63,013 nt of DNA from Bacteroidota bacterium. Lineage in GTDB: Bacteria; Bacteroidota; Ignavibacteria; Palsa-1295. Within the stretch, counting starts at the first letter, position 1, and the number at the start of each line of letters is the position of its first letter. A program made the position numbers and the translations under genes. Below are positions 2,813-48,082 of the stretch, in pieces. The notes under the pieces were generated by a model. That model had not been told where the DNA came from and did no database searches. It was given only the letters and a program-made list of their open reading frames with translations. The stretch is from positions 1-63,013 of the forward strand of contig JAJPIQ010000073.1 of NCBI GenBank assembly GCA_021324685.1, in the 5' to 3' direction.

Positions 2813-4624
2813 TTGTCGCACGTGGGCCTCGAAAACATCCGAAATTTTTGCATTATCGCGCATATCGACCATGGGAAATCGACCCTGGCCGATAAGCTGC
2901 TGCTGGAAACGCATACCATCGAAGCGCGCGAGATGACGAATAACCAGATGCTCGACGATATGGCGCTCGAGCAGGAACGGGGCATTACGATCAAGCTCCA
3001 TGCGATCCAGATGAGATATACCCCTGCAAGCGGTGGGGAGTATATCTATAATCTCATCGATACTCCCGGTCACGTCGATTTCACCTATGAAGTCAGCCGA
3101 AGTCTTGCCGCCTGCGAAGGGGCGCTGCTCGTGGTCGATGCCACGCAAGGGGTCGAAGCGCAAACGATCGCAAATCTTTTTCTTGCGATCGATGCCGGCC
3201 TCGAAATCATTCCCGTCCTGAACAAGGTCGATCTTCAGTCGGCAATGATCGAGGAAGTGAGCCACCAGATCATGGAGCTTATCGGCTGCAAAAAAGAAGA
3301 TATCATCCTGGCAAGCGCCAAAGCCGGGATCGGCATCGTGGACGTTCTGGAAGCGGTACGGCTCCGCGTTCCGCCGCCGAAAGGGGATGTGGAGGCGCCG
3401 CTCCGCTGCCTCATATTCGATTCGGTATTCGATTCGTATCGCGGGTCCATCGTCTATATGCGGGTCATGGATGGGACGATCAAAGAGGGCGACGAAATCC
3501 TTTTCATGGCGACGAAGCAGAAGTATCGCGTGGAAGAACTCGGGACGCTCAAAATGCGTCGCGAGAAAAAAACACAGCTTTCGGCCGGGGATGTCGGCTA
3601 TCTGATCGCCGGTGTCAAGGACGTGAAGGACACGCGTGTCGGCGATACCGTGACCCATTTTCGAGGCGGAGTCCAGGAGCCCATTTCAGGATTCAAGGTC
3701 GCAAAGCCGATGGTCTTCGCCGGGCTCTATCCGCAATCGGCGGAAGACTTTGCGATGCTCCGGGATTCGCTCGACAAGCTTTCACTGAACGATTCCTCGC
3801 TCGTGTACGAGCCGGAAAGTTCTATCGCGCTCGGCTTCGGGTTCCGGTGCGGCTTCCTCGGGCTGCTCCACATGGAGATCATCCAGGAACGGCTCGACCG
3901 GGAATTCGACCAGAATATCGTTACCACGGTCCCGAACGTGGAATATCGAGTGACGACGACGAGGCAGGAAGAGGTGATCGTCGATAACCCCTCCTCGATG
4001 CCGGAACCCGGTAAGATCGAGTGGGTCGAGGAGCCCTATATCAAAGCGCAAATTATCGTTCCGAGCGAATATGTCGGCGCGATCATGAAGCTCTCGAACG
4101 AGCGGCGGGGGATCTATAAAACAACGACGTACATCGATCCCACACGCGCCGACATTCATTATGAGTTCCCGCTCTCGGAGATTATTTTCGATTTTTACGA
4201 TAAGCTGAAGTCGATCTCTCGCGGGTATGCTTCGCTCGATTACGAATTTTTGGAATATCGGCAGAGCGATCTCGTCAAGCTCGATATATTGCTCAACGGC
4301 GATCCGGTCGATGCGTTTTCGACCATTGTCCACCGCGACAAGGCCTACGAATACGGAAAAAAATTATGCTCGAAACTTCGCGAGCTCATTCCACGTCAAA
4401 TGTTCGAAGTTGCCATCCAGGCAGCCATCGGAGCGAAAATTATTGCACGGGAAACGGTGAGTGCGCTCCGCAAAGATGTGACCGCCAAATGCTATGGCGG
4501 CGATATTTCCCGGAAACGGAAGCTCCTTGAAAAACAAAAAGAAGGCAAAAAACGGATGAAGCAGGTTGGGCGCATCGAAGTGCCACAAGAAGCGTTCTTG
4601 GCCGTATTGCAAATATCAGAATAA
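2813..4624 (+). CDS. lepA: elongation factor 4 (LepA), non-ATG start
   Basis: Ribosome-associated translational GTPase that remodels stalled or back-translocated ribosomes. The G1 motif AHIDHGKST, a G2 region around ERGITIK, DTPGH (G3) and NKVDL (G4) are all present. The LepA-specific C-terminal domain ends in [22 protein letters not shown], as usual. Length is about 600 aa. No in-frame ATG lies near the N terminus. The frame opens after a TAG at 2807-2809, leaving TTG at 2813 or GTG at 2822; I use TTG but the choice is open. It is followed immediately by lepB and hemW, a common lepA-lepB-hemW arrangement. Confidence 0.95.
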
Positions 4625-4630
4625 TACCCC

Positions 4631-5716
4631 ATGGCTGAAAAAACACCTCCTGGCACGCCATCGCCAATGGAACGGAGCACGTCTTCGGGAACGGCATCGT
4701 CCCCGGGCGACTCGAAACGACCGCGTACCTATGCTGAAATTCGGGCTGCCCGAGAGGGCAAGCGCCCCCAGTCCGGGCGCGTTGAAAATCCGAAGTGGTA
4801 CCAGGCGATGTTGGGTGGGATCGTGTATTTGTTCAGGCCCCGGGCCGACAAGAAAAAAGACGGCTGGCTTCGTTCCCTCATCATTGCGGGACTGATCGCC
4901 TTTATTATCCGAACGTTCTTTTTCGAGGCCTTCCGGATCCCGACCGGCTCGATGAAGAATACGCTCCTGGTCGGGGATTACTTATTCGTCAATAAGATCG
5001 GATATTTTATCGAGACTCCAAAATATATTCCGTTCACGACGATCGAAATTCCGCACCTGCACTTAAAAACATGGAGCGTGAACCGCGGGGACGTCGTCGT
5101 CTTCGAATATCCCGGCGATCGCGACGTGGTCAAGCCGATGGAACTAAAAGTAAATTATATCAAGCGGTGTATCGGCTTACCGGGCGATGTGATCGAGATA
5201 AAGAATAAGCAGGTCTATGTCAATGGGAAGATCTTTACCAATCCGCCCGAGTCCATTTTAGAGCCGGATACCGAACCGGTCGGGACCGTTGACCCGCGTA
5301 TTTTCCCTCATGGAGCGCAATGGAATAAAGATAACTTTGGGCCAATCCGAATTCCAAAGGAAGGCGATGTTATTCCTATTAACAAAGATAATATCGATGC
5401 CTGGCAGATCTTTATCGAGCGGGAAGGGCATACCGTCGAAATGGGTATGAACGATCAGGTGCTGATCGATGGAAAGCCCGCGACACAATATAAGGTCCAG
5501 CGCGATTATCTCTGGATGATGGGTGATAATCGAGACGATTCGGAAGATTCCAGGTTCTGGGGCTTCGCGCCCATGGACAACGTGATTGGCAGCGGGTTTA
5601 TTATCTATTGGTCCTGGTATAATCCGCCTTCGTCCGGCCAGGGAGATGGCTACGATCCGGATGAGGTCCAGCAGTTCCATATTCGCTGGAACCGTATCGG
5701 CAGGCTTATTCACTAA
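4631..5716 (+). CDS. lepB: signal peptidase I (LepB)
   Basis: Inner-membrane serine protease that removes signal peptides from Sec/Tat-exported proteins. The catalytic serine lies in PTGSM (Ser107) after a single membrane span (about residues 81-97), and the general-base lysine in NYIKRCIGLPGD (Lys178). Box E, MMGDNRDDSEDSRFWG, follows. At 361 aa it is longer than minimal enzymes. The extra length is a Ser/Pro/Arg-rich cytoplasmic N-terminal extension of about 75 residues and an insertion between boxes D and E, as often in Bacteroidota. It begins 6 bases after the lepA stop, so it is probably co-translated. Confidence 0.95.
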   Translation: MAEKTPPGTPSPMERSTSSGTASSPGDSKRPRTYAEIRAAREGKRPQSGRVENPKWYQAMLGGIVYLFRPRADKKKDGWLRSLIIAGLIAFIIRTFFFEAFRIPTGSMKNTLLVGDYLFVNKIGYFIETPKYIPFTTIEIPHLHLKTWSVNRGDVVVFEYPGDRDVVKPMELKVNYIKRCIGLPGDVIEIKNKQVYVNGKIFTNPPESILEPDTEPVGTVDPRIFPHGAQWNKDNFGPIRIPKEGDVIPINKDNIDAWQIFIEREGHTVEMGMNDQVLIDGKPATQYKVQRDYLWMMGDNRDDSEDSRFWGFAPMDNVIGSGFIIYWSWYNPPSSGQGDGYDPDEVQQFHIRWNRIGRLIH

Positions 5717-5736
5717 GGGCGATCGAAGCTCGTACG

Positions 5737-6933
5737 ATGAATCGCAGTTCGGATTTAAGCGCGTATCTCCACATTCCGTTCTGTGAGCGAAAGTGTATCT
5801 ACTGCGATTTTTATTCGATTGAAAATCTTTCGCTCCGGTCCGAGTTCGTCGATGTATTGCTCCGCGAGATCGATTTAAAACTCGAAGCGAACCCGGAACT
5901 CCAAAATCGGGAACTGCGAACGATCTTTTTTGGCGGTGGTACGCCTTCCTTGCTCGCCCCCAATGAATTAGACCGCATTATCCGAAGGCTCGAAACGCAT
6001 TTTCGGATTGCTTCCCACTGCGAGTTCACGCTCGAGTGCAATCCCGGAACGGTCTCGCTGGAGAAGCTTACGGCGTATAAATCGCTGGGCGTGAACCGGT
6101 TGAGCTTTGGGGTACAGTCCTTCGTTGCCGAGGAGCTCGAGTTTTTGGGAAGGATCCACGACGCAGATGAGGCCCGGCAGGCGATCGATCTTGCAAAGCG
6201 AGCGGGATTCGATTCGATCAGTCTCGATCTTATTTTCGGGCTGCCGTCTCAAACCGAGTCGAGCTTGCTTTTCTCCCTCGAACAGGCCATCGCACTGGAA
6301 ACCGATCACATCAGTGCCTATAATCTTATCGTCGAGCGCGGCACCCCGCTCTTTCGTCTTGTTCAACTCGGCAAAGTGATCGAACTCGATAACGATCGCG
6401 CGGCCGGCTATTATGCTACGGTCCAGGAGACATTGCAGGCAGCGGGATTTATCCAATATGAAATATCGAATTATGCAACCGCCGAACAGAAACGCGCGAA
6501 GCATAATCTCGTGTATTGGGATGGATTCAAAGAGTATGTATCGTTCGGGCCTTCGGCGCATGAATTCATCGGCGGGGTCCGCTCTTGGAACGTTTCTTCT
6601 TTGGAAGAATACGGGAAGTATCTACGGAATGGAACTCTTCCGATCATTAATTCGGAGCGATTGTCGCTCGAAGAACGCCGAACCGAAGTACTGTACGTAC
6701 AACTTCGCTCGACCGGCGTTCGACGAACGGAATTTATGAACGTGTTTGCTGAGGACCTGCTGTTACATCCGGCGGTGAACGACTTTATCGATGATGGACT
6801 GATGATCGTCAACGGCGACGTTCTGAGCTTAACGCCTGCGGGGTACCGCTATTGCGACGGTATCGTCACGCGCTTAATGGAGTCGGGGGACCGGGTGCCA
6901 AAACAATTCGAGATCGCCAGTATTATCTCCTGA
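5737..6933 (+). CDS. hemW: radical SAM heme chaperone HemW
   Basis: Homologue of oxygen-independent coproporphyrinogen oxidase that in HemW-type proteins delivers heme to membrane enzymes. The [4Fe-4S]/SAM motif CxxxCxxC is at Cys16, Cys20 and Cys23 (PFCERKCIYC). HIPFC, the FFGGGTPSLL glycine motif and LTLECNPGT-like block follow. It has the four-residue spacing up to Cys23 but no extra Cys as in HemN (CxxxCxxCxC), which favours HemW over a true oxidase. Length (398 aa) fits. It lies about 20 bases downstream of lepB. Confidence 0.92.
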   Translation: MNRSSDLSAYLHIPFCERKCIYCDFYSIENLSLRSEFVDVLLREIDLKLEANPELQNRELRTIFFGGGTPSLLAPNELDRIIRRLETHFRIASHCEFTLECNPGTVSLEKLTAYKSLGVNRLSFGVQSFVAEELEFLGRIHDADEARQAIDLAKRAGFDSISLDLIFGLPSQTESSLLFSLEQAIALETDHISAYNLIVERGTPLFRLVQLGKVIELDNDRAAGYYATVQETLQAAGFIQYEISNYATAEQKRAKHNLVYWDGFKEYVSFGPSAHEFIGGVRSWNVSSLEEYGKYLRNGTLPIINSERLSLEERRTEVLYVQLRSTGVRRTEFMNVFAEDLLLHPAVNDFIDDGLMIVNGDVLSLTPAGYRYCDGIVTRLMESGDRVPKQFEIASIIS

Positions 6934-6940
6934 ATGATCT

Positions 6941-9900
6941 ATGCGTCCTGAATACAAACGCGTTCATTATATTTTAGGGGCCGTGGCATTTGTGGGTGCG
7001 TTTATCACCTACGTGTCGACGATGCAGCCGACGATCCCTTTTTGGGATTGTGGCGAATTTGCCGCCGCCGCGAGTGCGCTTCAAATCCCTCATCCTCCGG
7101 GAGCGCCATTATGGACGATCGTGGGAAGGATAGCCATGCTGCTGCCGACGTTTTCGGACCCCGCGGCACGGTACAACATATTCTCCGTTATTTCGTCTGC
7201 GCTCTCGATCCTTCTGTTGTATCTCACGCTCGTGCGACTGATCCGGATCTGGCGTGGACTCCCTCGATCGACAGCCGACGCGATTATTTTATTTGGCGGA
7301 GCTATGATTGGCGCGTTCGCTTATTGTTGGACCGATAGCTTCTGGTTCAATGCGCTCGAATGCGAAGTATATGCATTCGGCTCGCTGTTTATTTCATTGG
7401 TGCCCTGGCTGCTGCTCGTCTGGTACGAACATGCCGACGAACCTGGGAACGAACGCTATTTGCTCGTGATCGCGTATGTGATCGGTCTTTCCCTGGGCGT
7501 TCACCAGCTTGCCTTGCTCACGATGTTCCCGGCATTTATGATCGTCTATATGCGCCGCTGGAAGAGCATAACCGAAGGCGAGTGGACGGCCAGTATTTTT
7601 GTTTCGATTCTCGCGATCGGAGTGGTGGCCCTTATAGTCCTGAACAGCCCGTCATCTATCCAGATCTATGAATGGGTCCTCGCCGGAGCGGGAGCGATTT
7701 ATTACTGCTATCGGGCCTTCCAAAAACAGCGAGGTTGGCAAACGATGGTGTTGAGCTCGGTGATCGCATTCGCCGTAACGTTCGTCGTGATCCTTTCGAA
7801 GCTGGTCGAATGGGCCGGGGAGAGCAAAGGAATTATTTCAGTCGTGGCGCTGGCGGCGATCGTCGGATCCCTCGTCTATGCTCACCGGACAAAAAAGCCG
7901 GCGGTCGCACTGAGCGGATGGATGCTCTTGCTGATCTTCTTAGGGTACACGACCTATCTCTTCGTCATGGTGCGCGCGGCGCAAAACCCGCCCATGAACG
8001 AGAACGCGCCTTCCACCTTTGCAAAGCTCGCCGGATATATCAACCGGGATCAATATGGTTCCATGAGCCTGTCCGACGAATTTGCGCACCGTCGCCTGCC
8101 GCAGCAGAAGGACGATCATCCCAATACCTGGGGCGATGCGGCGGCGTCCGACGGTGGGCCGCCCTATACGAGCGATTTTAATTTCTTTTGGCGATATCAG
8201 ACCAACACGATGTTTCACCGATATCTCGGATGGAATTTTATCGGGCGTACGGACGACTACAAAGGGGCGGGAGTCGATTTTTCGAAGACGTGGGGCCTGC
8301 CATTCCTGATCGGCCTTTTCGGAATTTATTGGCAGTTCCGAAAAGATCCGAAACGAGGGCTTGTTCTGCTGGGAACATTTATTATCATGGGGTACCTGGT
8401 CGACTGGTACCAGAACCAGCAGGACCCCCAACCGCGCGAACGCGATTATTTTTATGTCGGGGCATTCTATATCTATGCGATGTGGATCGGCATCGGAGCG
8501 GTCGGTATCATGGAGCTCGTAAAGCAGCAATACGCTTCCTGGAGTGAATCCAAAATCGCAAAGATCGTCGCGGGAACGTGCGCGTTGTTGTTCATGGCTG
8601 GGCCGCTGAACCAGTGCCTGGGCCTTGCGGGAATGATCGAAGGACAGCCGTTCTCTAAATCGGCAAAATGGGCCGAGTATTCGCGTAAACACAATTGGAT
8701 CCCCTGGGAATACGCCTATAATATCCTGCAAAGCTGCGAGCCCAATGCGATCCTTTTTACCTATGGCGATAACGATACGTTCCCACTCTGGTGTTTGCAG
8801 GACGCTTATCATATTCGCCGGGACGTCCGCATCGTTCAACTGCAACTGGTCACAATGATGTGGAATGTCCGGCAGCTAAAAACAGATAACGACTGGGGCG
8901 CGAAGGCCATTACACTGACGACGTTTACCGACGATCTCCTGAAGTTGCCGGACGACTCCGTTTATAAGCGATTGAACTGGACGCCGGAACCCGTTACGAT
9001 CCCGATCTCGGCCGAAACCGCTCGTTGGATGACCGGGGACAGTGCTGCAACGGCCACCAATTTTGTATGGACTCCGAAATTCGTCCTGCCAAGCGATCAG
9101 GTCGTGCTCGATATTATTAAGAATAATCTGACGACTCGGCCGATCTGCTATTCCATAACCGTTCCCGAAGATTCGCGTGCCGGACTGAATAAATTTCTTT
9201 CGTATGAGGGCATGACGGCGCGTGTCATGCCGTTCGAGCAGCCGCCGGACCAGACCGGGATCGGCGGCAGTATTCAACCCGTTCGATTTGCCGAGGCGGT
9301 ATTTCACGATCCGAAAACTCCGCATTCCGAACCGGACCGCGGTATGATACTTCATACCTATTCCGATCCCGAATCGCATTTCAGCGGAATGGACGAAGAA
9401 TATTCGATGGGGTATCGAAAGCAGTTTATTCGACTGGCAAACTGGTACCTGGAACATCGCGACCTCGCAAATGCAAGGCGCGCGCTCGACACGATGGAAG
9501 CCAGAATTCCCCTTGCCCGCGTCCCGTTCGATTATTCGTTCGCTTCTTTTACCGCCGACATTGCGGACAAATGCGGCGACTGGACCGTCATGCAGCGGTA
9601 CGCCGCGCGTGGTGCCGAAGGCTTAAAGGAACAGCTTGCAAATCCCGATTCCCGCGAAAGCCAGAGTGGCTTCCAGGCGAGCTACGAACTGGGAAATCTT
9701 GAAATGCGCGCCGGAGCGTTCGACTCCGCACGTCGGGACTTCGAGGTCCTGAACGAGCAATCGAAACCGGAAGAGCAGGCATTTCTTCACCTGAAGCTCG
9801 AGGAATGCGAAGCAAGGAAACTCGAGTCCGAAAAGCAGTACGACTCTGCCTATCGCTTATTTTCAGAATTGCTCGCCGCCTACGGTCCCTCGCCAAACCG

Positions 9901-9964
9901 AAGCGCCGAGCTTCAGGACCTTAAAAATCATGCGGATGCGGACTCGCTGGCAAGCCGGCGATAA
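6941..9964 (+). CDS. DUF2723 membrane protein, probable GT-C glycosyltransferase (copy 1)
   Basis: A 1007-aa polytopic protein with many membrane helices in roughly the first 560 residues and a soluble C-terminal half. The N-terminal signature PTIPFWDCGEF (Asp36, Glu39) followed by HPPGAPLW is diagnostic for DUF2723, the family related to eukaryotic TMEM260 O-mannosyltransferases. The acidic pair in the first extracytoplasmic loop is where GT-C enzymes place catalytic residues. QNQQDPQPRERDYFYVG and FTYGDNDTFPLW are shared with copy 2. The last ~150 residues look helical and TPR-like. Predicted role: transfer of a sugar from a polyprenyl-phosphate donor to exported proteins or lipids. It starts 7 bases after the hemW stop. 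Confidence 0.88.
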   Translation: MRPEYKRVHYILGAVAFVGAFITYVSTMQPTIPFWDCGEFAAAASALQIPHPPGAPLWTIVGRIAMLLPTFSDPAARYNIFSVISSALSILLLYLTLVRLIRIWRGLPRSTADAIILFGGAMIGAFAYCWTDSFWFNALECEVYAFGSLFISLVPWLLLVWYEHADEPGNERYLLVIAYVIGLSLGVHQLALLTMFPAFMIVYMRRWKSITEGEWTASIFVSILAIGVVALIVLNSPSSIQIYEWVLAGAGAIYYCYRAFQKQRGWQTMVLSSVIAFAVTFVVILSKLVEWAGESKGIISVVALAAIVGSLVYAHRTKKPAVALSGWMLLLIFLGYTTYLFVMVRAAQNPPMNENAPSTFAKLAGYINRDQYGSMSLSDEFAHRRLPQQKDDHPNTWGDAAASDGGPPYTSDFNFFWRYQTNTMFHRYLGWNFIGRTDDYKGAGVDFSKTWGLPFLIGLFGIYWQFRKDPKRGLVLLGTFIIMGYLVDWYQNQQDPQPRERDYFYVGAFYIYAMWIGIGAVGIMELVKQQYASWSESKIAKIVAGTCALLFMAGPLNQCLGLAGMIEGQPFSKSAKWAEYSRKHNWIPWEYAYNILQSCEPNAILFTYGDNDTFPLWCLQDAYHIRRDVRIVQLQLVTMMWNVRQLKTDNDWGAKAITLTTFTDDLLKLPDDSVYKRLNWTPEPVTIPISAETARWMTGDSAATATNFVWTPKFVLPSDQVVLDIIKNNLTTRPICYSITVPEDSRAGLNKFLSYEGMTARVMPFEQPPDQTGIGGSIQPVRFAEAVFHDPKTPHSEPDRGMILHTYSDPESHFSGMDEEYSMGYRKQFIRLANWYLEHRDLANARRALDTMEARIPLARVPFDYSFASFTADIADKCGDWTVMQRYAARGAEGLKEQLANPDSRESQSGFQASYELGNLEMRAGAFDSARRDFEVLNEQSKPEEQAFLHLKLEECEARKLESEKQYDSAYRLFSELLAAYGPSPNRSAELQDLKNHADADSLASRR

Positions 9965-10078
9965 CGACTAAAAATCGGCATTTCAGGAGCTTTCCGAGCT
10001 TCGAATCAGTTCTTAGACGCCCTCGTTTTTTTAGAGGTGGAGAGCCTCGGCTGGAGGCCATTCATTTTATTCGAACCG

Positions 10079-13000
10079 ATGCAGACCAAACGTATTCATT
10101 ACGCGCTGGCAGCGCTTAGTTTCCTCGTTGCAGCGTTTACGTACCTCTCGACCATGCAGCCTTCGATCCCGTTCTGGGATTGCGGTGAATTCTTAGGAGC
10201 TGCCGCTACCCTGGGCATTTCCCATCCTCCGGGAGCACCGCTATGGACGCTCATGGGCCGTTTTGCCGAGCTTATCGTTCCTATGTCCGACCTGGCAGCA
10301 CGGTGCAATGCTCTTTCGGCGATTTTCGGCGCACTCTCCTCGATGTTCCTGTATCTTTCGACGGTCCGAATCATCAGAATGTGGCGTGGAAATCCGCAGT
10401 CCGTTTCCGACGCCATTTTGCATTACGGCAGTGCGTTTGTCGCCGCGCTTGCCTTCACCTGGAGCGATAGTGTCTGGTTCAATTCGAACGAATTTATCGT
10501 CTTTTCGCCGGGCCTTTTATTTATCAGTATTATTATCTGGCTCGGCCTCATCTGGAACGAACGTGCGTCCGATCGCGGCAGCGAGAAATACCTTCTGTTT
10601 ATTTTCTATCTCATCGGTCTTTCGATGGGTGCGCACCAAATGTCCATGCTTGCCTTCTTCCCGATCTGGGTGCTCATTTACTACAAGCATTGGTCGAAGC
10701 TCGATTTTAAAGGCTGGATGAAGATGGTGCTTACGGGCGTAGTGGCATTCCTCTTTATTTTCCTGGTCGTGCTTACCGGCCTTGTCGGATGGCTCGGAGG
10801 CTCGAAGCAGGGGCTGTTTACATGGCTCTCGGCTATTGCCTCGATCGGGTTTGTGATCTATTATTGGAACAATAATAGAAAACTTGCAGAATTAATCCTC
10901 TGGGGGGCAGGGCTGCTGCTACTCGGATATTCCACCTATGCGTTCGTGATGGTGCGGGGCTCGCAAAATCCGCCGATGGACCAGCACCATCCCTCGACCT
11001 TCGCTCAGTCCCATGGGCATGACGGACTGTACGAATATATTTCCCGCCAGCAGTATGGCGAAGCGCGCGAGTTCCCACGCCGCAATGACGATCCCGGTAT
11101 CAAGGACGATCCGATGCACGCACCGACCTGGGATGAAACGAAATATACGAGCTCGGCCGACTTTTTCTGGAAATACCAGACGGACCACATGTATATCCGA
11201 TACCTGCTCTGGAACTTCATTGGCCGCGCCAAGGACGTGCAGGACGCCGGTACCGACTGGACAAAAACGCTGGGCATCCCTTTTATCATCGGTGCATTCG
11301 GAATTTATTGGCATTTCCGGCGAGACCCCAAGCGAGCGCTCGCCATGCTCGCGGCGTTCATCCTGATGGGAATTTTTACGGCCTGGTACCAGAACCAGCA
11401 GGACGCGCAACCGCGCGAGCGCGATTATTTCTATGTCGGTTCGTTCTGGGTCTATGCCATGTGGATCGGCATCGGCGTGAGCGGGATCATGGAGTATCTG
11501 CGCGCTCGTTTTGCGAAAAAGCAGAACCTGCCGCTCCAGAATGCCGGACCGAACGATCGGGAAGTGATCGAAGCGCCCGATGAGACCGTTCCCGTCCTGC
11601 GCGGTGCCGGACCCGTCGGGGTCTTAGCCGGCACGCTTGCCCTCGCGGTGGTCCTCATTCCCCTTAACCAATGCCTTGGCCTTGCGGGGATGACGCTCTT
11701 CGGTCAGAGTTTCAAGCAGGCTTCCAAATGGGGCGAGTATTCGAGGGAACACAACAACGTCCCGCTGGAATACGCCTATAATATTCTTCAGAGCTGCGAA
11801 CCGGACGCGATCCTTTTCACGGCCGGCGATAACGATACGTTCCCGCTCTGGGCGATCCAGGACATGTACCATGTTCGCACCGACGTCCGCATTGTGAATT
11901 TATCGCTCGGGAATATGGGATGGTATGTCAAGCAGCTCAAAGACGACCACCCGTTCGGAGCGAAGACGGTCAACCTGCCCTCGTTTACGGAAGAGCAACT
12001 GGCCCATGAGGACGAGACCCAGCAGGGCATTCACATGCAGGTCGCGCCGCCCTCGATGGTGACGGTGAACGTTTCGGCGGCCGCCATGCAAAAGTTCACC
12101 GGCGTTGCCCAGCCCTATACCTTTAGCTGGAAATATGTTTCCCAGCACACCGATCCATACGATAAATCGCAATTCGTCTATGAAGTTGCCGATCAGTTGG
12201 TGAGGGATATCGTGGTGAACAACATTAACGACCGGCCGATCTATTTTGCGATCGGCCTTCCGCCGAGTTATTGGACCGGCCTCGACAATCACGGCGTCTT
12301 CGAAGGGCTCGTCGCTCGTATCGTTCCCACGGAACACCCGGCGCCGCACCAGCTTTTCGATGGCGATATCAACGAGCCGTTATACCGTCAGATCGCGTTC
12401 CAGACCACGCCGGCGCTGCAGGACCGCCCGTACCGCGCCATGCTCTTAAATAGTTTCCGCGATCCCAAATCGAACCGGAGCGGCCTCGACGAGCAATACG
12501 GCACGACCACCTATTTCGAGATGTACGGACGGCTCGCCAATTATTATATCAATCACAATCAGATGGCCGATGCGCGCCGTACGCTCGATACGTTCAGCGC
12601 CCGGTTGCCGATCGACCTCATCGATTGGACGGATAACGTCCAGGAGTCGGTCGGTATCTTACAAGAGACCGGAGAACTCTACAAGATCACCGGCGATGTC
12701 CCGATGGCTCAGAAGTACATCCGGAAAGCCGCCATGATACTCAGCGCGTCCGGTACGGACGAGGGAGCGGTCGGGAGCGATCAATACCTCCAAAATGAGT
12801 TCCGAAAGGGCGACCTCTACATCAGCGCGGAAATGTACGATTCGGCGCGATCGGTATTTTCCACGCTCCGGTCGCAGACCGAAGGTGGGAACCAACTGTA
12901 TGTCGATTTTCGCTTGTCGCAGATCGATGCCCGGGTACTCGAAAAACAAGGAAAGAAAAAGGAGGCTTTGGCGAAGCTGAACGATATACTCACCAAGTAT

Positions 13001-13195
13001 GCGCAGCTCGCGCAGATGGGCGTTGGCAGCGAATTGAATGCCGTTCGCCAGGAGCGCGATGCACTTGCGGCCTCGCTCGGCATGGCGGATACGCTGAAAG
13101 CATCGGCTCCCGGCGCGCCCCCGGTTTCCGGTAATACGAACCCGGCGGCTCCCAATACGGGGCCGAATGCCGCGCAACGAACGGACAAAAAATAG
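10079..13195 (+). CDS. DUF2723 membrane protein, probable GT-C glycosyltransferase (copy 2)
   Basis: Paralogue of the preceding gene with the same PSIPFWDCGEF and HPPGAPLW signature, TM-rich N-terminal half, QNQQDAQPRERDYFYVG and GDNDTFPLW blocks, and a helical TPR-like C-terminal region. I place the start at ATG 10079 because MQTKRIHYAL aligns with the start of copy 1; a GTG at 10037 would add 14 non-conserved residues. It differs by an Asp/His-rich insertion in the loop before the TSSADFFWKYQ block and by a Pro/Asn/Ala-rich C-terminal tail. The predicted product is 1038 aa. The tandem pair suggests two acceptor or donor specificities. Confidence 0.88.
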   Translation: MQTKRIHYALAALSFLVAAFTYLSTMQPSIPFWDCGEFLGAAATLGISHPPGAPLWTLMGRFAELIVPMSDLAARCNALSAIFGALSSMFLYLSTVRIIRMWRGNPQSVSDAILHYGSAFVAALAFTWSDSVWFNSNEFIVFSPGLLFISIIIWLGLIWNERASDRGSEKYLLFIFYLIGLSMGAHQMSMLAFFPIWVLIYYKHWSKLDFKGWMKMVLTGVVAFLFIFLVVLTGLVGWLGGSKQGLFTWLSAIASIGFVIYYWNNNRKLAELILWGAGLLLLGYSTYAFVMVRGSQNPPMDQHHPSTFAQSHGHDGLYEYISRQQYGEAREFPRRNDDPGIKDDPMHAPTWDETKYTSSADFFWKYQTDHMYIRYLLWNFIGRAKDVQDAGTDWTKTLGIPFIIGAFGIYWHFRRDPKRALAMLAAFILMGIFTAWYQNQQDAQPRERDYFYVGSFWVYAMWIGIGVSGIMEYLRARFAKKQNLPLQNAGPNDREVIEAPDETVPVLRGAGPVGVLAGTLALAVVLIPLNQCLGLAGMTLFGQSFKQASKWGEYSREHNNVPLEYAYNILQSCEPDAILFTAGDNDTFPLWAIQDMYHVRTDVRIVNLSLGNMGWYVKQLKDDHPFGAKTVNLPSFTEEQLAHEDETQQGIHMQVAPPSMVTVNVSAAAMQKFTGVAQPYTFSWKYVSQHTDPYDKSQFVYEVADQLVRDIVVNNINDRPIYFAIGLPPSYWTGLDNHGVFEGLVARIVPTEHPAPHQLFDGDINEPLYRQIAFQTTPALQDRPYRAMLLNSFRDPKSNRSGLDEQYGTTTYFEMYGRLANYYINHNQMADARRTLDTFSARLPIDLIDWTDNVQESVGILQETGELYKITGDVPMAQKYIRKAAMILSASGTDEGAVGSDQYLQNEFRKGDLYISAEMYDSARSVFSTLRSQTEGGNQLYVDFRLSQIDARVLEKQGKKKEALAKLNDILTKYAQLAQMGVGSELNAVRQERDALAASLGMADTLKASAPGAPPVSGNTNPAAPNTGPNAAQRTDKK

Positions 13196-44095: not shown

Positions 44096-44875
44096 TCAAT
44101 CTTCCCAAACGATGCTCAGACAAGAGTTGATGGATCGGAAGGGGATGCACCACTCATAGCAGGGTACACTACTTTTTGAGACAGTTTCGAACCAGTCACT
44201 CTTTGAAATTTTTTGTTTACGTGAATCACCCGAATCATTTATTCCTTCAGTAAAGAACTCGTGTGCAACGGAAAGGGCTGGTGTCTCGAGATTGAGCTTC
44301 GTACACCAGTAATTTGAGCCCTGCGTTCTCTTCATCCACTTAATTATATTATTTTGCGAGTAGGCGACAAATATCGGATGAGGCCCCCGGCTAACATATT
44401 TCAAAATCGTTGAAGTTACACTAGTCCTGAACCCATAAGAGAGTTCATCGATTAGAGCGGGCGAAAAAGGCCTGCCCAGCGTCTTTTTGACGAAAACTTC
44501 GGAAGGCATTAGAAACTCCGCAGCGAAGTAATTTGCCTCTTGTTCGTGTGAGCCCTCTTGATACCAAGTTAATAATGACGCATCAGTGTCGGAGAAAATG
44601 GGTTCTAGGTTCCTATGTAACTCGTAATGTCCCAACTCATGGGCAGCAATAAATCTTCTTCTTTGCTCGGGTTTAGAATTAGAATTTACTGATATAAATG
44701 ATTTTCCGTTTGTGGACACCATCTCTCCCTCTTTCCCAACCAGCGGCTTTTCTTCATAGAATGCTCCTCGACCGAGGATTACTTCTTCCATTTCTATCCC
44801 TATTGGGGTTACAAGGCCACAGGCGCGCAGAACTTCTTTGGCTTTAAGTTCAGCAAGCGTTAAGTTAAGATTCAT
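44096..44875 (-). CDS. ImmA/IrrE-family zinc metallopeptidase
   Basis: A 259-aa cytoplasmic protease. The zinc motif HELGH is at 79-83 (RRRFIAAHELGHYELH), and the third ligand region EQEANYFAAEFLMP (around 111-124) is typical of ImmA/IrrE, which cleave repressors or anti-activators. The C-terminal ~110 residues, with several Cys/Trp, are of unknown fold and may sense a signal. It overlaps the preceding 140-aa gene by 11 bases, as the last gene of a three-gene operon with a sigma-like protein. AT-richer than the core genes around it. Confidence 0.85.
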   Translation of the reverse strand: MNLNLTLAELKAKEVLRACGLVTPIGIEMEEVILGRGAFYEEKPLVGKEGEMVSTNGKSFISVNSNSKPEQRRRFIAAHELGHYELHRNLEPIFSDTDASLLTWYQEGSHEQEANYFAAEFLMPSEVFVKKTLGRPFSPALIDELSYGFRTSVTSTILKYVSRGPHPIFVAYSQNNIIKWMKRTQGSNYWCTKLNLETPALSVAHEFFTEGINDSGDSRKQKISKSDWFETVSKSSVPCYEWCIPFRSINSCLSIVWED

Positions 44876-45287
44876 CGTTCTTATTTTCCTCGCTCATTTT
44901 AAGTTCGTTCGCATAATACTTTATCATGAGATCATTCATGTTCTCGGATGAGAGTGACTCTAATTTACGGAAACTTGCGACAATTTTTTTTTCGACGAGG
45001 AAAGCACTGAGCGAGAATCCCGGGGTATTCTTAATTCGTTCTACAATTTCTGCAGCCCTTTCCATGAAGCGATTAATCGAATTTTGTTGAGCCCTTGTCT
45101 TCTCCGCATTGAGCTTCAGTTCCATTCTCTTGATTTTACGTAATCCACTCGCTATTAGTGCATCAGGTTTTAACCCCTCAGACTCCAAGTATGCCTTGGC
45201 AGACTCAACATCGGATGATATGGACTCAAGGCTTGTCGAGATGAAGTTGATGAACGCTGCCTTCTTTTGATTGGTGTTTTCACTCAT
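44865..45287 (-). CDS. unknown helical protein in sigma/ImmA-IrrE operon
   Basis: A 140-aa, mostly alpha-helical, charged protein with no signal, membrane segment or cysteine. It has stretches such as FMERAAEIVERIKNTPGFSLSAFLVEKK and a Glu/Asn-rich end. It starts in an ATGA overlap with the upstream sigma-like gene and ends inside the ImmA/IrrE gene. Position suggests a mediator, perhaps an anti-sigma or the peptidase substrate. That is a guess; I recognise no family. Confidence 0.7.
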   Translation of the reverse strand: MSENTNQKKAAFINFISTSLESISSDVESAKAYLESEGLKPDALIASGLRKIKRMELKLNAEKTRAQQNSINRFMERAAEIVERIKNTPGFSLSAFLVEKKIVASFRKLESLSSENMNDLMIKYYANELKMSEENKNDES

Positions 45288-45886
45288 GACGATTTCTCCT
45301 TGAGATTAAAATGATTTGCGACAGCTATTTTTTTTGTATTCAGCCGCCGGACGCCGTTGTCATATTGAGGCCCATCCATGTCGAACTCCCTTATTATGTC
45401 ACGACGCTCCATGTTGCATTGCGATCCCAGTAGGATTTTCTCGGCGATATCATCACCCATTACCATTTCTTCGAGTTTTGCCATTACCGTTTCATAATCA
45501 ATGCCTTCATCAAAATAGTAATTTATTGCAAGAAGTTGAGCTGCCTGAACGGTATCGCCCCCCGTTTCGTCGAAGCTGCCAAACTCCGGCAAAACAGAAA
45601 ATTGGCGATTCTCGAATGAACGAACGTCATTCCCGACGAGGGTACGTATCACATAGTATTTGAGATATGATTCTACGGATAAACCCGGGTGAGCGTTAAT
45701 TTTATCAGGGTCTTGAAGGTAACGAAGAATTGCTTCTTGGGCATAATCCTCGGCCTGTTGCCCTGCCACGGTCGAATCGATGGAGGTTCCCCGAAACCAG
45801 TGACGGCGCGTTATCAAGTAATGCGCACGTGCAAGTAATTTCGGATAAATGTTGTCCCAATCCGGCTTTCCATTATCCATTTCCAC
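45284..45886 (-). CDS. sigma-70-like (ECF-type) protein, tentative
   Basis: A 200-aa protein. The N-terminal half, with LLARAHYLITRRHWF, a AEDYAQEAILRYLQDPDKI helix and SYLKYYVIRTLVGNDVRSFENR, resembles sigma region 2. The C-terminal part (ILLGSQCNMERRDIIREFDMDGPQYDNGVRRLNTKK) resembles a helix-turn-helix region 4. Between them is an acidic segment. The first codon is GTG 45886, with AGGAG five to six bases upstream; ATG 45880 is an alternative. It heads the operon with the unknown helical gene and ImmA/IrrE. The sigma assignment rests on pattern only. Confidence 0.55.
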   Translation of the reverse strand: MEMDNGKPDWDNIYPKLLARAHYLITRRHWFRGTSIDSTVAGQQAEDYAQEAILRYLQDPDKINAHPGLSVESYLKYYVIRTLVGNDVRSFENRQFSVLPEFGSFDETGGDTVQAAQLLAINYYFDEGIDYETVMAKLEEMVMGDDIAEKILLGSQCNMERRDIIREFDMDGPQYDNGVRRLNTKKIAVANHFNLKEKSS

Positions 45887-46022: not shown

Positions 46023-46286
46023 ATGAATTTCTTAGACTTTCCTGTTCAACTCGGGCCAAACGATGCGGTTTCCATTATCCTCGATAAGCAGGCGAACGTC
46101 CTTCTTCTCGACGAATCCAATTTTCAACGGTATCGAAGTAGACAAAGTTTTCGATACAGCGGGGGATTAGCTCAGCAATCACCTGTCATTCTCAGGCCAA
46201 CATCGCCGGGTAGCTATCATGTGGTGGTCGATCGGGGTGGCCTCGGAGGAAGCGTCAGGGCTTCCGTTTCAGTAATTTATAATTGA
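46023..46286 (+). CDS. DUF1883-domain protein
   Basis: An 87-aa beta-rich protein. VSIILDKQANVLLLDESNFQRYR, the FRYSGGLAQQSPVILRP turn and SYHVVVDRGGLGGSVRASVSV match DUF1883, a small jelly-roll-like domain sometimes joined to TIR domains. No TIR domain is attached here. It forms a plus-strand pair with the next small gene and lies in the AT-rich accessory patch. Confidence 0.75.
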   Translation: MNFLDFPVQLGPNDAVSIILDKQANVLLLDESNFQRYRSRQSFRYSGGLAQQSPVILRPTSPGSYHVVVDRGGLGGSVRASVSVIYN

Positions 46287-46311: not shown

Positions 46312-46524
46312 ATGGCAACAACAAAAGACGAATACAAACCAGGCGAGAAGTGCGAGCAATCTGGCATTTACACCGTAACACACGATGTAAAGCATCACGA
46401 CGTGCATGAAGTCACTGTGGTCTTTGGCGAAAAATTTCCGCCCTGCAATCACTGCGGACATCACCCCCGCTTCAGGCTCAAATACGGCGCGATACACGTT
46501 ACGAATCACGAACACTTTAAGTGA
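46312..46524 (+). CDS. small Cys/His protein (zinc-binding candidate)
   Basis: A 70-aa protein with PGEKCEQSGIYTV near the start, a His-rich segment (DVKHHDVHE), the knuckle-like PPCNHCG (Cys45, Cys48) and HHPRFRLK. The motif arrangement resembles short bacterial proteins with a CxxSGxY start and PPCxxCG knuckle, possibly zinc-binding. It follows the DUF1883 gene by 25 bases. No enzymatic role is suggested. Confidence 0.65.
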   Translation: MATTKDEYKPGEKCEQSGIYTVTHDVKHHDVHEVTVVFGEKFPPCNHCGHHPRFRLKYGAIHVTNHEHFK

Positions 46525-46606: not shown

Positions 46607-48082
46607 TTACGATAACTCTCGGTAGTCAAAACATGTAAAATCATAATATTTATCGCGATAGCCTGAAGCTGCAAGGATTATTCTATTGAATAGATTGACA
46701 AAGGTTAGCATGGCATCCACGCTTTCCTGATATTTATCTTCGTCCATCTCATAAGGGTCATCGATTTTTCCATGTGCGAGTTTATTTCGCCATATTTTAA
46801 AAATTGACCACTCTTCATTACGAGCACTCAAATTCAAGGAGAAGTGTGCATAATAGTACTTGTCTTTTAAGCTCTTATCGTTAAGAGAGCGAAATGCCCC
46901 TATGATTCTTTCTCTATTCCTTGAATTTAACCCGCATGTTTCAAGCGCCGCTTGCGCCTTGCCAAAGTCAGCTAGGAAGGATGTTCGATCTTCCGCTGGC
47001 CAGTTTAGTATTTTTGGAAGGACCTGAAAAAGAGCATCAAGTAGACTGCAGATGTGCAGCGCACGTACTGAAGCAAAAAGAGGCCCTGGGGCCGTCAAAT
47101 AATGCCTGAGTATGCTTCTAACTTGATTCGTATCGTCGCGAAAAATGAGTTCCGCAATCTTGCCTGTTAAAAAGAAGTGTGGGGCTTCCTCTTTCCAGTA
47201 ATGATAGAGGGGCGAAACAAAGAGTTCCTCGCTCTTAGGGCTGACGTGGAATGTTGTTGTGGCTTTATCATCTACCTGATGTTCAATTATCTTCGTCACC
47301 AGCTGGGATGCAACAAAGCCTATAGCAGTGATCAGAGCAGTTTCTAATCTTTCATGCTCGCTGCCGGAATAATTCCCCATCTCGCTATAGAGGAACAAGC
47401 CACCTTCGTGGTGCTCTTGCAGCTCAAAAACGCAACCGCATACAGGGATCTGAATAATCATGGAGGGTACGTCGTAGCGATCTTGGTTTCTTCTATCCGC
47501 ATCTCTTAATTGCTTCGCCGAGAATAGGGAGGGGAATCTGCTTAATTTTACAAGTCGATATTTTTTTTGAGAAGCAGAGGCACTCGAAATCTTGGTTGTT
47601 CTCAGTGGCAGAAAACAATTCTTGTTGTCGTATACTTTGCACCCACCTTCGAGAAGGCCAAATATTTCTAGATTCCCGGAATGTCCCATGATCTTTGCAC
47701 GGCTGCTGTCCTTGACAAAAGTCCAATCGCGATCTGCAATTGTTGAGTCTGTAATTCGCAGCCAGTTTATGGAAGAGTGCAAGTGAACTCCAAGGGAACC
47801 GGCACTACTGTCAAGCAACCTCCTTGCTGTTTCAATCGCTTCAATTAGGTTCCCGTCCGAGCTTTTAAATGATCTTCTTTCGATTTCGTTCAAATTGGAC
47901 CTAATGTCCTGCTGTTCCCATTCCCAAAGCAATATTCCAGACCCTTGTCCTAGAATTTCTTCCGTTGCAGACAAAATACTTACACGGTCGAGTTCTAGTG
48001 AAAATGTTTGTGGTTTTCTAACAAGGAAATCGAGATGATTAACGTCAAGCCCATTGCGGTTCCTTCGTTCTGTTTTTTGCAT
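46607..48082 (-). CDS. HEPN-like protein, candidate defence ribonuclease
   Basis: A 491-aa cytoplasmic protein. The C-terminal ~150 residues are helical and contain RNKLAH (Arg432-His437), an RX4H motif typical of catalytic HEPN domains, preceded by IFKIW and followed by a long helix. The N-terminal ~300 residues are mixed alpha/beta and not recognised. The overall plan (long N-terminal region plus C-terminal HEPN) resembles ApeA-type abortive-infection proteins, but the N-terminal similarity is unverified. AT-rich, flanked by convergent and divergent genes; no antitoxin partner is adjacent. Confidence 0.6.
   Translation of the reverse strand: MQKTERRNRNGLDVNHLDFLVRKPQTFSLELDRVSILSATEEILGQGSGILLWEWEQQDIRSNLNEIERRSFKSSDGNLIEAIETARRLLDSSAGSLGVHLHSSINWLRITDSTIADRDWTFVKDSSRAKIMGHSGNLEIFGLLEGGCKVYDNKNCFLPLRTTKISSASASQKKYRLVKLSRFPSLFSAKQLRDADRRNQDRYDVPSMIIQIPVCGCVFELQEHHEGGLFLYSEMGNYSGSEHERLETALITAIGFVASQLVTKIIEHQVDDKATTTFHVSPKSEELFVSPLYHYWKEEAPHFFLTGKIAELIFRDDTNQVRSILRHYLTAPGPLFASVRALHICSLLDALFQVLPKILNWPAEDRTSFLADFGKAQAALETCGLNSRNRERIIGAFRSLNDKSLKDKYYYAHFSLNLSARNEEWSIFKIWRNKLAHGKIDDPYEMDEDKYQESVDAMLTFVNLFNRIILAASGYRDKYYDFTCFDYRELS

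Follow-up and report, generated by a model that had tools for sequence, protein, structure and literature searches.

A CapP-type protease, a small helical protein and a sigma factor as a putative control cassette for adjoining defence and stress operons

Three overlapping genes in the window, a 63,013-nucleotide stretch of the genome of a Bacteroidota bacterium, encode a sigma factor, a small helical protein and a CapP-type protease. They are best explained as a mobile control cassette for the adjacent operon, in which CapP would release the sigma factor from the middle protein, acting as an anti-sigma, and the sigma factor would activate both the cassette and the divergent operon. We regard this explanation, taken jointly with its mechanism, as probable. 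It is still an open question in what way bacteria silence suicidal immune operons before infection. The gene families, the conserved gene order, the association with target operons, the paired sites of fixed geometry and the N-terminal fusions of the middle protein are the observations presented here; the coordinates are collected in Table 1.

Table 1. Features of the cassette and of the operon divergent from it (positions in the window)
Feature	Position	Strand	Remark
CapP-type ImmA/IrrE (M78) metalloprotease gene, 259 aa, ATG start; HELGH at residues 79-83, CapP C-terminal domain present	44096..44875	-	
Middle helical protein gene, 140 aa, ATG start; proposed anti-sigma and CapP substrate	44865..45287	-	without family or fold match
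Sigma factor gene (ECF-like, regions 2 and 4), 200 aa, GTG start	45284..45886	-	profile and fold comparison; orthologues head every cassette
Promoter-like site toward the cassette, GCAAAAAAATCGCGCTTGTTAACAT; end 27 bp before the sigma start codon	45914..45938	-	
Promoter-like site toward DUF1883, GCAAAAAATCGTCAATGGTTAACAA; end 49 bp before the start codon	45949..45973	+	
DUF1883 gene, 87 aa, proposed target	46023..46286	+	Pfam match
YjzC-like gene, 70 aa, proposed second gene of the target operon	46312..46524	+	match at E = 8.5e-5, slightly short of the cut-off; separated from DUF1883 by 25 bp

Genes of the cassette

The genes lie end to start on the minus strand, the sigma and middle genes sharing an ATGA (45284-45287) and the middle and CapP genes sharing 11 bases (44865-44875); the first-pass annotation had described this arrangement, and its coordinates and both overlaps were confirmed. 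It had also placed the genes in an AT-rich accessory patch, which holds: the patch spans 43.5-49.5 kb of the window, and the cassette has a GC content of 0.44, the window as a whole 0.525. No counterpart of the window sigma protein was found in six sister species of the genus, and no similarity was found between the window right of pnp and five sister stretches, hence no empty-site junction could be drawn; together these results mark the cassette region as accessory DNA. The same patch contains, convergent with the DUF1883 operon, a gene for a 491-aa protein (46607-48082, minus strand) with a C-terminal HEPN-like match below the cut-off (Pfam HEPN_MAE_28990, E = 0.0022), possibly another defence gene.

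The first protein, earlier called sigma-like, is by profile comparison and predicted fold a sigma factor of ECF-like type. As a single sequence it matched Pfam Sigma70_r2 weakly and below the cut-off (E = 0.0023); a profile built from ten family sequences matched PDB entry 3MZY (RNA polymerase sigma-H) at E = 1.9e-5 over positions 42-191, spanning regions 2 to 4. The predicted model is weak (mean pLDDT 61.5), with helices at 10-85 and 131-192 and a low-confidence linker between them. Its nine best Foldseek matches were all chains from sigma-factor or transcription-initiation entries, and VIA-align placed ECF sigma factors at Z scores of 8.8 and below. The 3MZY profile, the model and the fold matches all fit the ECF-type layout, in which a linker connects regions 2 and 4. 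The corresponding genes in Chryseobacterium, Azospirillum and Bradyrhizobium carry the RefSeq name 'sigma-70 family RNA polymerase sigma factor'.

The last protein had been annotated as an ImmA/IrrE protease and can be defined more closely: judged from its sequence, it is a full-length CapP relative and not just any ImmA/IrrE protein. It matched PADLOC capP at E = 7.1e-56 over residues 9-259, and its profile matched the solved CapP structure 7T5T at E = 6.5e-27 over positions 44-258, through the C-terminal domain; IrrE structures aligned with it at only about positions 58-174. Both the M78 domain with its HExxH motif and the CapP C-terminal domain are present. A CapP profile search of viral contigs returned distant M78 proteins only.

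The middle protein, previously listed as an unknown helical protein, is predicted to be all-helical in a model of moderate confidence (pLDDT 79, pTM 0.52). It had no credible match in Pfam, NCBIfam, PHROGs, PADLOC, PDB sequences or Foldseek, no HTH family match and no match among viral contigs and phage records; comparison with PDB sequences and by Foldseek found no recognizable anti-sigma fold. A membrane-spanning anti-sigma of the kind handled by regulated intramembrane proteolysis was rejected, as the protein has no membrane segment (best 19-residue Kyte-Doolittle mean 0.85).

Residues 1-68 of the middle protein travel with sigma: in three sigma loci lacking a separate CapP gene, the first 64-70 residues alone are kept, as fusions to an M78 protease (L096; L numbers denote individual loci), a ZorD-like SNF2 helicase (L099) and, weakly, a 245-aa protein (L097). 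Near the other end lies a motif, FRKLESLSSENM at residue 106 in the window and ARNxxxLSxxD elsewhere, found in 15 of 35 against 1.6 in shuffles, with an expression that was written after the sequences had been inspected; by eye, 'AAR' also occurs in this motif in the middle proteins of other sigma lineages. Read simply, the N-terminal half would bind sigma, and CapP would recognize the C-terminal part. An arrangement in which CapP acts on sigma itself, or in which the middle protein is an adaptor presenting sigma, with cleavage shutting off or limiting the operon, seems unlikely; it gains from a middle protein of no known fold and from partner relations that we only infer, but the C-terminal motif is common across sigma lineages and the N-terminal half persists beside sigma in the absence of CapP, both of which are expected if the middle protein bridges sigma and CapP.

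Two of the fusion loci have further features. At L096 (8618-10252, plus strand) the N-terminal half and the M78 protease are followed by a macro-domain-like C-terminus (by eye), and the sigma operon lies opposite a multiubiquitin/E1 operon. At L099 (5791-7980, minus strand) the helicase fusion lies beside genes for sigma, a GHKL ATPase and an HNH protein, and the cluster is possibly an unlisted defence operon.

Gene order and divergent operons

The order sigma, small protein, CapP recurs in relatives of the host, in Pontibacter (L004 and L012), Flavisolibacter (L013), Fibrella (L014) and Chryseobacterium and on alphaproteobacterial plasmids; it is kept likewise in L095, L098, L100 and L182-L188, and in the more divergent loci L189-L195 and L200. 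Co-occurrence had been suggested as a check on the first-pass annotation, and the three genes proved to be co-conserved in order across many genera. One class of the host's phylum was searched (390 genomes), and each of the 13 CapP matches above 125 bits was found to sit after two smaller genes, the first of which belongs to this sigma family in seven loci and to a second family in six; within the second family, three members match Pfam Sigma70_r2 (one above the cut-off), and the remainder can be aligned with one of these three at 29-45% identity. Sixteen plasmid CapP contexts were inspected, 14 of them sigma-type and two HTH-type (CapH+CapP-like). For the three proteins, the sets of pairwise distances are correlated with one another (r = 0.68-0.78, 0 of 2000 permutations).

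Since the same gene order is found in many distant genomes, the trio is not a chance cluster. A chance accessory cluster or a toxin-antitoxin set with no regulatory link to the divergent operon is extremely improbable: the cassette is indeed absent from the six sister species and the target genes in the window are of unknown function, but the order, the overlap and the divergent targets recur across phyla, and the paired sites described below are unique in the genome. The chance cluster was rejected on conservation, and the toxin-antitoxin set because no member is toxin-like.

Two further groups of loci are worth recording. In L168-L172, L178, L229 and L230 a second sigma lineage accompanies CapP; the middle proteins there end in a MAARNGNxIPxHIxxKM-like sequence, and the intergenic dyads look different, being ATACCAAAAC-like (by eye). 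In L189-L195, L198 and L200, all from the host's class, sigma cassettes stand opposite a protein of about 230 aa (MAELKK..GKISGxxGD) with no Pfam match, and the shared promoter pattern is mostly missing.

A defence or stress operon lies divergent to the cassette at the majority of loci. The targets include CBASS (phospholipase and cyclase in L095; cyclases in L182, L184 and L233), Bil (L185, BilD 2e-134), Pycsar (L229, PycC 2e-116), an E2/E1/JAB operon (L100) and multiubiquitin (Bub-type) operons (L004, L012, L013, L096, L238 and L241), as well as small genes, namely DUF2188 (L239 and L240; L186 by eye), DUF3892 (L244) and a YegP-like gene (L188, by eye). DUF3892 stands opposite a sigma cassette in Bradyrhizobium barranii and opposite an HTH+M78 pair in Sulfitobacter, so the two controller types seem to swap over one target; yegP also adjoins CapK+CapS (PMC13373217). 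The cassette of L233, on a Cereibacter sphaeroides plasmid, lies opposite a CBASS cyclase (PADLOC 2.6e-201), and C. sphaeroides 2.4.1, a tractable model, is among the records matching the window CapP. In L098 an intact cassette is divergent from genes for a Tn7-like TnsA, a Mu-type transposase and TniB (4259-7834, minus strand), and damage-induced transposition is a possibility there.

Neither DUF1883 nor the YjzC-like gene, the neighbours in the window, is a known defence gene. The window holds the only DUF1883 match in the host's class (245 genomes searched), and the domain is also found with TIR domains (PMC9153377). On a planctomycete plasmid, a DUF1883 gene 49% identical to that of the window is preceded by three others: one named 'sigma factor', a small one, and a reading frame that is not listed and encodes an M78-like HELGH. 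The planctomycete sigma did not match the window sigma family profile (E = 0.31), so the locus is a parallel and not a proven orthologue.

In Pontibacter, umuD and a Y-family polymerase gene adjoin a cassette, which would suit a DNA-damage signal, and in L187 RecQ helicase- and DprA-like genes lie directly downstream of the cassette (9730-13111, plus strand; by eye). It is very unlikely that the wiring is the same and the signal something other than single-stranded DNA, with the CapP C-terminal domain reading another ligand. Single-stranded DNA sensing is known in relatives only (PMC13373217, PMC10904395), and sequence identity to them is low, but the 7T5T match extends through that domain and DNA-repair genes adjoin these two cassettes.

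Paired sites between cassette and target

The first-pass annotation contained neither the divergent target genes nor the promoter-like sites facing them. Between the divergent genes of the window lies an inverted back-to-back pair of sites: GCAAAAAA-N9-GTTAACA occurs there once on each strand, and these are the only exact copies in the 3.47-Mb genome; a search for a wider regulon in the host genome gave 12 two-mismatch copies against 9 for the control, about equal numbers. Across 22 intergenic regions, the pattern G..AAA-N15-[AG]CAT, found by eye in five loci that are part of the shuffle test, gave 15 sites against 0.98 in shuffles and lay on both strands in four loci against 0.013. A weight matrix from those five loci beat all 60 shuffles in six others (L095, L014, L187, L188, L096 and L013); L192 also scored above all 60, but with a poor site, and L098, L100, L186, L097 and most of L189-L200, in the host's class, did not exceed the shuffles. 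In the alphaproteobacterial plasmids, which were searched afterwards, there were nine copies of TGTCC-N19-GCAT where shuffles gave 0.04; three loci have it on both strands, and of the 16 spacings tried only this one yielded sites, the other 15 giving none. For most sigma start codons, the site directed toward sigma begins about 45-67 bp upstream, in promoter position. The pairs have a fixed -35/-10-like geometry and are promoter-like, as would suit an ECF sigma factor's own promoter. The CAT block is common across phyla, and the other block is lineage-specific at a fixed distance from it, a pattern that would be expected of a sigma factor with a conserved region 2 and a diverging region 4.

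These paired sites are dyads, a layout that would also suit a repressor operator. The sigma-like protein could accordingly be a repressor that binds the intergenic dyad as CapH does, with CapP removing repression by cleaving sigma or its partner; most loci have the sites arranged as an inverted repeat, and derepression is the mode of the three described immune controllers of this kind. We nevertheless consider such a repressor improbable, as each arm has two blocks, the length of a sigma promoter and one fixed spacing, the arm facing sigma has its end about 25-40 bp upstream of most start codons, the CAT block is conserved between phyla and the second block varies, and sigma regions 2 and 4 are retained.

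Proposed mechanism and described controllers

In the favoured explanation, activation by a CapP-released sigma factor, sigma would be made together with its own inhibitor, the middle protein, whose N-terminal half would hold it inactive. CapP would be switched on by single-stranded DNA, as in its characterized relative, and would then cut the middle protein, probably near the conserved C-terminal motif. The freed sigma would guide RNA polymerase to the two promoters that lie back to back in the region separating the cassette from its divergent operon, and upon DNA damage, for example phage infection, expression of the cassette and of its target would rise (DUF1883 and the YjzC-like gene in the window; CBASS, Pycsar, Bil or Bub elsewhere). 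Four elements of this scheme are ones that we infer: the binding of sigma, the cleavage, the nature of the signal, and activation as opposed to repression. The first-pass annotation had read the trio as a proteolytic switch on an alternative sigma factor; sigma regions 2 and 4, the co-conserved order and the paired promoter-like sites support this idea, in which the anti-sigma role and the cleavage would be the connecting steps.

The model joins two described modes of control. The CapP of CapH+CapP and PprI are activated by single-stranded DNA and cleave a transcription regulator (PMC13373217, PMC10904395), and CalpL cleaves an anti-sigma, freeing a sigma factor, in type III CRISPR immunity (PMC11417357). 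CapH+CapP resembles cassettes of the present type in having a CapP protease beside an immune operon, in the DNA-damage response to be expected and in sharing CBASS, Pycsar and Bub targets. An adjoining immune operon is seen in many relatives; in the window the neighbours are DUF1883 and the YjzC-like gene. The trio itself has no CapH HTH repressor. Where CapH+CapP has that repressor, the cassette has sigma and a small helical protein, so its control is probably activation and not derepression. CalpL/CalpT/CalpS likewise places a protease, an anti-sigma and an ECF sigma in three genes, the anti-sigma role being a proposed one here, but its protease is a CRISPR-tied Lon-SAVED enzyme triggered by cA4 (PMC11417357); that of the window is of M78/CapP type, and no cA4-activated Lon-SAVED protease is found in the trio. 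CalpT and the middle protein are likened by role alone, and no sequence relation is claimed.

CapK+CapS and CapW/BrxR are also portable DNA-damage controllers beside the same targets, including Bub and yegP, but they consist of a kinase with a STAS-wHTH repressor and of a WYL repressor, respectively, and differ from the trio in their proteins (PMC13373217). IrrE/PprI-DdrO of Deinococcus has a single-stranded-DNA-activated M78 protease that cleaves a transcription regulator; DdrO represses a chromosomal regulon, whereas the substrate here would be an anti-sigma and the target one operon (PMC10904395). On our best reading, the trio works like CapH+CapP and CalpL/CalpT/CalpS and is identical to neither. 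The earlier remark that this wiring was not known as a described system stands insofar as no description of the sigma/middle/CapP trio was found in the open literature searched, a body that lacks some key papers, but the trio is nearer to these two systems than had been supposed.

Plasmids often carry the cassette, among them one from C. sphaeroides, which is genetically tractable, and the presence of the cassette marks the adjoining DUF1883, DUF2188, DUF3892 and YegP-like genes as candidate damage- or phage-response genes. To our knowledge, those controllers of this kind that have been described act through the relief of repression; if our explanation is true, the cassette would, unlike them, be a dedicated activator of immune operons.
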